Positions 28,040 through 39,238 of a stretch of DNA of 64,000 nucleotides are shown piece by piece. This DNA comes from an uncultured Methanobrevibacter sp. (lineage in GTDB: Archaea; Methanobacteriota; Methanobacteria; Methanobacteriales; Methanobacteriaceae). Made by a program: the position numbers and the translations under genes. The notes under the pieces are model-generated. The model saw nothing but the letters and a program-made list of their open reading frames with translations, made no database searches and was not told the DNA's origin. The stretch spans positions 1-64,000 of the forward strand of contig NZ_CAMVTE010000001.1 of assembly GCF_947170395.1 (NCBI RefSeq), read 5' to 3'. The stretch's first letter is position 1, and each line of letters opens with the position of its first letter.

Positions 28040-28163
28040 AATTAGTATTGGGATGGTTAGGTAGATAGGAATTATCTACCTAACAACTTGTTTTTACAAG
28101 TTTTTAGAGAAATGAATTTTAAAATTTGGCTGTTTAATCTATCTCTCCGGCTACATTGTAGCC
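28040..28163 (-). ncRNA. Candidate structured small RNA
   Basis: This gene-free 300-base region between divergent genes holds three strong hairpins: GTTAGGTAGATA/TATCTACCTAAC (28056-28084, 12 perfect pairs, loop GGAAT), AACTTGT/ACAAGTT (28085-28102) and GGCTACA/TGTAGCC (28149-28163). On the minus strand a TATA element (TTTATATA, 28194-28187) predicts transcription starting about 28163, exactly at the GGCTACA hairpin. The strand then runs through the other two hairpins to a T run at 28041-28036. The layout fits an independent RNA of about 120 bases. A 5' leader of the gene at 27964 is an alternative, although that gene seems to have its own TATA box. Confidence 0.5.
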
Positions 28164-28271
28164 AAGTATTATTTATGTATTACTAGTATATAAAGTTATT
28201 TGCATTTTATAAAAATTCAAGTATACTTTATAAAAAAAATATATATTCTTTGATACATAAAATTTACTTGA

Positions 28272-29318
28272 ATGAGCGATTATAACGAACATGAAATGTA
28301 TCTTAAAAGAGTCCTTTCAAATTCAATAGGCTCTCAAAATCCATCAGAAAATGCAAAAAACAGGGCACGTAAATTATCCAATTCCTATTTTATGGATTAC
28401 AAGGAAAACCTTCTAATGGATTATGAAGGTAAGCAATTGGATGATATAGACAACTCCAGTGTAGTTTCAACATCATTCGGGGACACGTTAAAGATATCTC
28501 AAACAGAAAAGATAGACTTCAAAATCACTGATAACAATTTCAAAAGTCAAATAAACAATAACTTAAAGTTGCTTCCAAAAATTGGCCTCAAAACCGAGCA
28601 AAACCTTAAAAACAAGGGATACACTACAATAGAATCGCTTACACGCCATGACAAATATGGGGATAGCGCATCAAAATTCCTTGATAACATTGACGGATTG
28701 TCATTTAGGCAAATTGTTGATTTGCTGGACAATAACAGATACAGCAAAAAATGCAGGGACAATATCCTGAGGTCAATCAGTCTGACAGATAGGGAAAACT
28801 TCAAATTCATGGATATCGAGACATTGGGTCTTTCCAACGTTCCGATAATATTGATTGGTGTGGCTGAGATTAAAGGAAATGAGATCATCTCTTCCCAGTA
28901 CTTTTTAAGGGATATCTATGAGGAGCCTGCAGTAATCGAGGCATATCTGTCTCATCTGGATGAGGATTCGGTGCATGTCACATTCAATGGAAAAAGCTTC
29001 GATGTGCCATATATCAAAAACAGATGCCTTTCCAACAGGCTGTCTGCAGATTTGAATCTTGCCCATCTGGATTTGATGTATTTTGCAAAGAATCTCTGGA
29101 AGGATGACCTGCCTAACTGTCAGCTTCAGACAATCGAAAGGGAAATTTTTGGAATTGAACGTGAAGGTGACGTTCCGGGACAATATATTCCCGACTATTA
29201 CAATACATATCTTGCCGAAAAAAATATAGGTCCAATCGTTCCAATTATAGAACATAACCGTCAGGATATCGTTTCACTTGCTAGCTTTTTAGAGAAAATG
29301 TATGAGGATGTAAATTAA
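28272..29318 (+). CDS. RNase H-like exonuclease (YprB / COG3359 type)
   Basis: From about residue 175 the protein has an exonuclease fold with the DEDD residues: FMDIETLGL (D and E), HVTFNGKSFDVPYI, and a final HNRQDIVSLASFL with the last aspartate. These are marks of the YprB-type family of predicted 3'-5' exonucleases. Residues 95-150 resemble helix-hairpin-helix elements (LLPKIGLKTEQNLKNKGYTTIESL split by a turn), possibly DNA binding. The TATA element at 28230-28243 lies about 30 bases before the ATG, so the message is probably leaderless. The stop is 1 base before a repeat-protein gene, suggesting that they work together. Confidence 0.85.
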   Translation: MSDYNEHEMYLKRVLSNSIGSQNPSENAKNRARKLSNSYFMDYKENLLMDYEGKQLDDIDNSSVVSTSFGDTLKISQTEKIDFKITDNNFKSQINNNLKLLPKIGLKTEQNLKNKGYTTIESLTRHDKYGDSASKFLDNIDGLSFRQIVDLLDNNRYSKKCRDNILRSISLTDRENFKFMDIETLGLSNVPIILIGVAEIKGNEIISSQYFLRDIYEEPAVIEAYLSHLDEDSVHVTFNGKSFDVPYIKNRCLSNRLSADLNLAHLDLMYFAKNLWKDDLPNCQLQTIEREIFGIEREGDVPGQYIPDYYNTYLAEKNIGPIVPIIEHNRQDIVSLASFLEKMYEDVN

Positions 29319-32728: not shown

Positions 32729-32769
32729 CTTTAATTTTTCTTTTTTTAAAAAAAATAGTTAGATGAAGA

Positions 32770-33255
32770 TTATTTGAATCTGTCATCTGATTTTTGTGAT
32801 TTTGCTTTTTTGTGTTTGGTTTCAAACCATCCGATTTTTAGCTCATCAATGGTGTCTTCGTAGAGCTGGGGTACATATGGTTTGATGTCGAGAAGTGGTG
32901 TTCCATCAAGCACATCAATATTTTCAACACAGACCTTATTATCCTTAACGTCTGTGAGCTTAACCACGCTCATTCCGATGCGGTTTGGCCTTTTGGGTGA
33001 TCTTGTTGCAAACACTCCATGGGTGTTGTCATCCATGAACGGTTTTACTTCAAGCATGTAGCCGTCAACCTTGTGAAGCAGATATATGATGTGGATGTGT
33101 GAGAAATCATTGAGGTCTTTTAGACCGTCTACATATTTGTCCTTGATTTCAATAGTTCCCTTTACTCCCTTTGCACCAGTCGGCTGAATTGGCATGCCTT
33201 CGATTTCTTTAAACTCAGTATGGATTGTACCAATTGATTCCATTTCGATTTTCAT
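32770..33255 (-). CDS. trmO: tRNA N6-methyltransferase TrmO (TsaA family)
   Basis: The motifs IGTIHTEF, FSHIHIIYLLHKVDG, FATRSPKRPNRIGMSVV and DVLDGTPLLDIKPYVP match the TrmO beta-barrel family, which methylates N6-threonylcarbamoyladenosine at position 37 of tRNA with S-adenosylmethionine. The 161 residues include a lysine-rich tail of about 15 residues. It is convergent with the M42 peptidase gene (41 bases apart). Confidence 0.88.
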   Translation of the reverse strand: MKIEMESIGTIHTEFKEIEGMPIQPTGAKGVKGTIEIKDKYVDGLKDLNDFSHIHIIYLLHKVDGYMLEVKPFMDDNTHGVFATRSPKRPNRIGMSVVKLTDVKDNKVCVENIDVLDGTPLLDIKPYVPQLYEDTIDELKIGWFETKHKKAKSQKSDDRFK

Positions 33256-38460: not shown

Positions 38461-38560
38461 AGCTGGGGAGTTTTGTCAATGTCATAGTGAGTCTAGTCCG
38501 ATGGGAACAATGACTCAATCAGAAAAATAGATGAATTATTGTAGTTGGTGCTACAATAAT
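38461..38560. terminator. Convergent intergenic hairpins
   Basis: Between convergent genes a perfect 10-base hairpin (ATTATTGTAG, loop TTGGTG, CTACAATAAT; 38535-38560) directly precedes the stop of the minus-strand gene and should end both transcripts. Upstream, TGAGTC (38488-38493) pairs with GACTCA (38512-38517) in an otherwise GC-richer, non-repetitive stretch of about 65 bases, which might be a separate small RNA or the 3' end of the plus transcript. Confidence 0.5.
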
Positions 38561-39238
38561 CTAAAATTTATTTATTTTTTCCTGGAATTCCTCTTCAGTT
38601 TTCATTTCATGTCTTTTTTCGGTTAGAACTTCCATTCCAGCAAATACAAGTCCTGTTATGACAAATGTCAGGTGAAGCACAATTCTCCAGAATTCAAAAT
38701 TCGGATCTACATGTGTAGTAGCATTCAGGAAATCCTGCAGTAATTCAATCAGGGAAATTGCCACCACTGAACCGATGATTTTTATTTTAAGTCCTGAGAA
38801 ATCCAAACGACCCATCCATGGAAGGCGGTCATCACTTCTCTCGGCAGCATCAATTTTAGATACGAAGTTTTCATAACCTGAAATTGTAACGATGAGCACT
38901 AAATTGGCCACTAAAGTCAAATCCAGAAGCTCCAGGATGCGTACAATCCACTGATTGGTATTCAATGTTTGCATTATCAAAACAAAATCATATACTTCAA
39001 ATACGAATTTGCCTAATATAAGTATCAATACGATTATCAGGATAAGATACATTATTGATAAAATCCATCTGCTTCCAAAAAGGAAAAATTCTATTCCCCT
39101 TTCAACAAGATGCCTTAAATAATGGAATTTTTGCTCAATATATGCATACTTTTCATTCTTTTTATCATCTTTGCCGGGTTTATGTTTTACATTTCGTTTA
39201 TCGACTACTTCAAATATGGGCTTCTTTTCTTCTGGCAA
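38561..39238 (-). CDS. YqhA family (UPF0114) membrane protein
   Basis: After a charged N-terminal extension (about 35 residues) there are four membrane segments. LDLTLVANLVLIVTISGYENFVSKID, quoted in parts as LLDLTLVANLVLIV and SGYENFVSKID, is the signature of the YqhA family. SGLKIKIIGSVVAISLIELLQDF and the C-terminal HLTFVITGL also fit. The function is unknown; some relatives have been suggested to help solute transport. It lies 11 bases after the beta-helix gene on the same strand. Confidence 0.85.
   Translation of the reverse strand: MPEEKKPIFEVVDKRNVKHKPGKDDKKNEKYAYIEQKFHYLRHLVERGIEFFLFGSRWILSIMYLILIIVLILILGKFVFEVYDFVLIMQTLNTNQWIVRILELLDLTLVANLVLIVTISGYENFVSKIDAAERSDDRLPWMGRLDFSGLKIKIIGSVVAISLIELLQDFLNATTHVDPNFEFWRIVLHLTFVITGLVFAGMEVLTEKRHEMKTEEEFQEKINKF

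Follow-up and report, generated by a model that had tools for sequence, protein, structure and literature searches.

Does the interval between an exonuclease gene and a divergently oriented membrane-protein gene of an uncultured Methanobrevibacter sp. hold an RNA gene of its own, and if so, what might that RNA do? A sequence-only reading of the window (the whole 64,000-nt stretch of DNA analysed here) had proposed a small RNA of three hairpins with its own promoter on the minus strand. Comparison across the genus supports that reading, and we consider it very likely that the element is a functional RNA gene. Its parts are as follows.

28163-28037, minus strand: RNA gene of ~127 nt (~125), spanning H1 through the U-tract, both ends predicted
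28194-28187, minus strand: TATA box of the RNA gene, TTTATATA
28163-28149, minus strand: helix H1, GGCUAC-AAU-GUAGCC, 6 bp with a 3-nt loop
28148-28106, minus strand: module H2, arms 28148-28141 and 28113-28106, loop of ~27 nt
28135-28125, minus strand: AAACAGCCAAA, core of the H2 loop and proposed site of pairing
28102-28085, minus strand: helix H3, AACUUGU/ACAAGUU, 7 bp, predicted by folding
28084-28056, minus strand: helix H4, terminator-like, 12 bp
28041-28037, minus strand: U-tract, the predicted transcription end

Fold of the element

The TATA element lies where it had been placed, and H1 begins 31 nt past its first T, in keeping with the claim that the transcript would start on the first hairpin. 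That hairpin, read as GGCTACA/TGTAGCC, was correctly located, although its seventh pair would leave a 1-nt loop and the helix is better drawn with six pairs. The two further hairpins (H3 and H4) and the T run at 28041 are likewise present; the count of three was too low, the H2 helix having been missed, and the AT content of the stretch is 72%, not the 76% given (window, 65%). The expectation that so many hairpins would not arise by chance holds well. The predicted transcript has a minimum free energy of -37.4 kcal/mol, against -15.0 +/- 3.1 in dinucleotide shuffles (z -7.1). When both strands of the window were cut into 984 tiles of 130 nt, the most extreme tile reached z -5.1 and none reached -6; the RNA element is thus, by a wide margin, the best-folding place in the window. 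The next-best tiles, 38481-38610 on the plus strand (z -5.1) and 32761-32890 on the minus strand (z -4.9), lie at convergent gene ends and are likely terminators. H2 encloses the most conserved part of the RNA, and its loop core has a predicted mean unpaired probability of 0.87.

The element does not resemble the established classes that were considered. No tRNA was found there. A C/D box guide RNA was rejected, as boxes C (RUGAUGA) and D (CUGA) are both absent from 28163-28037, and so was an H/ACA guide, given the short uninterrupted helices and the lack of a terminal ACA; neither class gave an Rfam match. Indeed, nowhere in the window did a family of Rfam release 15 attain its gathering score. 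The two sub-threshold matches are chance ones: one, to a plant-virus pseudoknot, lies on the opposite strand, and the other, to lsy-6, falls outside the element.

Conservation and independence from the neighbouring genes

Among 56 genomes the TATA box has a mean major-base frequency of 0.98, compared with 0.65 in the spacer behind it, which bears out the proposal of an own promoter. In 48 of the 56 loci, 28-30 nt separate TATATA from the first G of the RNA, a spacing that fits archaeal promoters; most of the other eight look like cases in which the script chose a nearer TATATA. Within the RNA, the loop core AAACAGCCAA is completely conserved (1.00), and the mean major-base frequency is 0.96 in the H2 loop, 0.99 in the H2 3' arm and 84% in H4, dropping to 67% past the U-tract. 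In most relatives a T-run follows H4 beyond a short A/C-rich spacer.

Conservation of H1 and H4 extends to their pairing. Rather than being lost in relatives without compensatory change, the outcome that would have counted against a small RNA, both helices are kept by such changes across the 56 genomes: both-sided changes occur in three of the six pairs of H1 (99.4% of cells paired) and in 11 of the 12 pairs of H4, giving 14 pairs with compensatory changes. Overall, 94% of cells in the RNA alignment are paired, against 35-54% for slid controls, and the covariation score is 0.180, compared with 0.104 +/- 0.004 for shuffles, slid controls staying at or below 0.055; these scores come from an alignment fitted to the structure, and an unfitted alignment shows the same picture. 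H1 and H4 also came out of RNAalifold, which was supplied with no structure, and 10 of 13 pairs covaried. Judged from the alignment, with 14 covarying pairs and the controls passed, the secondary structure is conserved. The inner helices behave differently. H2 shows no compensatory pairs in the alignment, and its proposed helix rests on folding energy and conservation; in one sub-clade (L036, L040-L042, L044, L046, L051-L053) the pairing is kept in a shifted register. H3 has 97% of its inner-pair cells paired, yet on this comparison it is dispensable, since L047 and L049 lack it and L045 and L050 have it in degenerate form.

It could be argued that such a pattern reflects DNA rather than RNA, as inverted repeats may covary as DNA sites too, and H4 with its T-run looks like a terminator. 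A palindromic regulatory element or terminator with no functional RNA is, however, very improbable: the most conserved part is unpaired and non-palindromic, the letters of H4 vary while its pairing is kept, unlike in a protein-binding DNA site, and the TATA box stands at a near-fixed distance. The possibility that the conserved stretch encodes a small protein on the plus strand, where the invariant part reads MNFKIWLFNLSL, is negligible. The frame is open in many close relatives, but indels of 1-2 nt that shift it, together with stops, occur in L015, L016, L021, L025, L028, L031, L034-L036, L040 and others, in which the nucleotides are otherwise conserved; these indels rule out what is the only candidate coding frame.

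The surroundings of the RNA raise a further question, namely whether it belongs to one of its neighbours.

28272-29318, plus strand: divergent neighbour, RNase H-like exonuclease (Pfam RNase_H_2, E 5.6e-36)
28026-28004, minus strand: TTAGAAAA..T-rich block, conserved after the RNA in relatives
27964-27581, minus strand: downstream gene, small membrane protein without a Pfam family
past the small membrane protein gene: phosphopantothenate synthetase, then kinase

Nearly all loci share the gene order of divergent exonuclease, RNA, small membrane protein, phosphopantothenate synthetase and kinase, and the RNA is intergenic in every syntenic locus. Lying almost always just upstream of the membrane-protein and CoA-biosynthesis genes, on their strand, and carrying a hairpin that resembles an intrinsic terminator, the RNA might be taken for their 5' leader or a riboswitch. 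Three observations make this improbable. The conserved TTAGAAAA..T-rich block between the U-tract and the downstream gene is promoter-like and is likely to be a separate promoter of that gene. In G061 (L039) ~0.5 kb, and in G013 (L056) ~1.7 kb including an extra gene, separate the RNA from the membrane-protein gene. Finally, G008 has cleanly lost the RNA yet retains both neighbours and a similar downstream promoter-like block. In view of these two insertions and the clean loss in G008, genome comparison indicates that the RNA is a separate gene and not a leader of its neighbours. The extra gene of L056 (2601-3443) resembles, by eye, PD-(D/E)XK-type nuclease/transposase-like proteins.

Distribution and novelty

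Blast searches among relatives found the RNA across Methanobrevibacter, and the named contigs that share its neighbour gene all belong to that genus. In the source genome the element is single-copy. A covariance model trained on 56 copies and searched at E <= 1e-9 identified exactly one copy in each of 56 of 67 Methanobrevibacter genomes, and none in any of 84 other genomes of the order Methanobacteriales. The single-contig genomes G034 and G011 carry a divergent version, and in G055 a degenerate second copy of the 3' half lies directly behind the first (L031, 2177-2400). A relaxed search of 16 genomes outside the genus gave weak matches only, the best of which, in G063 (32 bits) and G071 (26 bits), were unconvincing as relatives when inspected. 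Eleven of the 67 genus genomes gave no match; in several of them the neighbouring exonuclease gene was not detected as well, and these absences may thus be assembly gaps. In G021 and G008 the locus is present and the RNA absent, a weak DNA match in G021 (L057) having been rejected as a copy.

A survey of open-access papers turned up no intergenic small RNA described for Methanobrevibacter, this one included. The family is new relative to Rfam 15 and those papers; its kind, the archaeal intergenic small RNA, is already known.

Proposed function and a candidate partner

Beyond the conservation, structure and independence evident from comparison, we infer that the element is transcribed: its own TATA promoter would drive a ~125-nt RNA that opens with H1 and closes with the terminator-like H4 and the U-tract. 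The reading we favour, and hold to be probable, is that this archaeal small RNA gene stands alone, is specific to the genus and acts in trans by pairing through the H2 loop of its RNA. The accessible loop (AAACAGCCAAA), possibly together with the invariant 3' arm AUUCAUUUCUCU, would pair with partner RNAs and so alter their stability or translation.

An invariant loop is equally explicable by a protein, and the RNA could be real and yet serve as a protein-bound scaffold or decoy whose loop is recognized by that protein. The length of the invariant stretch, AAACAGCCAA followed by AUUCAUUUCUCU, exceeds that of a usual pairing seed, and in the eight genomes searched the loop-core complement TTTGGCTGTTT occurs 3-10 times per genome without any genus-wide partner showing a perfect 11-nt match to the loop. 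We regard this ribonucleoprotein role as rather unlikely, as it comes with no known protein candidate and as a conserved site complementary to the loop exists in about 30 genomes.

The gene behind that site encodes a heavy-metal P-type ATPase. In three of the eight genomes (G000, G029 and G062) one TTTGGCTGTTT occurrence precedes this same gene, and in about 30 genomes the ATPase leader carries UUUGGCUGU(UU), complementary to the RNA loop. The ATPase upstream region holds three tandem promoter units, in each of which AGTAATACT operators flank a TATA box; these units are conserved over much of the genus and are probably sites of a metal-responsive repressor. The arrangement AGTAATACT-GAGTATWTAAATGAACTCAAAAAA-AGTAATACT, three times in tandem upstream of the P1B heavy-metal ATPase, is seen in L092 at 1375-1650 (the source genome, G000:C29, ~15.7-16.0 kb) and in L203-L257. 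After the second unit comes TTTTTGGCTGTTTGGTAGTTACTGAATTTAATTTTT, a potential weak hairpin with the loop-complementary letters in its loop; in G042 the site stands directly before the ATPase start codon. Elsewhere, around position 1500 of L279, L282 and L283, intergenic AGTAATACTTTTTGGC(G/T).TTTTT elements occur outside a tandem operator context and are possibly other small transcripts.

Inspection of the upstream region placed the GGCTGT site in 30 genomes, and an exact 18-nt match added two, for a total of 32 of 67. Thirty of these 32 have the RNA; the two others, G036 and G049, come from assemblies in which the neighbouring exonuclease gene was not detected either. In G008, where the locus is intact but the RNA absent, the ATPase leader has just two promoter units and lacks the site, although its ATPase is nested in a well-supported group that bears the site; this joint loss is a single event. 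Between the loop and the site, 14 pairs can form with an energy of -18.5 kcal/mol (shuffled loops, -7.3 +/- 2.4), a value that is biased because the site search itself used complementarity. Furthermore, the first part of the site (GTAATACTTTTTGGC) recurs elsewhere with other letters behind it, so that only about six complementary letters are specific. ATPase upstream regions and the 18-nt match revealed no site in about 26 of the 56 RNA-bearing genomes; genomes without it include those with the second ATPase paralogue only, G010, G048, and G034 with G011. Since about 26 genomes have the RNA and not the site, the ancestral partner must be something else or more. It is thus doubtful, on these sequence comparisons, that the ATPase leader is the true partner; it is a lead, not proof.

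Other target searches added little. The complement of the H2 3' arm found nothing shared beyond the RNA gene itself, and the matches to a 10-mer loop complement in the source genome, mostly inside coding sequence (for example ..LAV.. codons), were set aside as uninformative alone. A tandem TTTGGCTGTTTTGGCTGTTT element considered as a double sponge proved instead to be a dispersed multi-copy repeat (L095 1465-1545, L094 1465-1545, L164 1455-1560), with matches in 35 of the 67 genus genomes, some of which hold several copies.

Very few archaeal intergenic small RNAs have known targets (PMC5867862). Methanosarcina mazei sRNA154 and sRNA162 (PMC5867862; PMC3510493) are likewise intergenic methanogen genes with genus-level conservation and stable hairpins, and the loops of sRNA154 pair with several mRNAs, much as is proposed here for the H2 loop. 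They differ in belonging to another archaeal order and in a nitrogen control that has no counterpart seen here; the structure and loop sequence of the present RNA appear to be its own, and Rfam provides no link.

If the RNA pairs in trans, as we prefer to read it, one candidate partner, restricted to about half of the species, would be the P1B-ATPase leader, in which UUUGGCUGUUU could make as many as 14 pairs with the loop. A speculative extension, to which we give a low probability, is a metal-controlled RNA-RNA switch: the metal-operator promoter upstream of the ATPase would yield a short hairpin RNA or leader that captures the loop or is acted on by it. Some bacterial small RNAs have sponge or anti-sRNA partners, and an RNA loop complementary to part of a stress-regulated leader would act in a comparable way. 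If the switch exists, the small RNA would be sponged under metal stress, or would itself act as the gate of the exporter. Methanobrevibacter ranks among the main methane producers in the human gut and rumen, and the comparison presented here provides, across this genus, a new and strongly supported RNA family whose loop is defined and for which one candidate partner can be tested.
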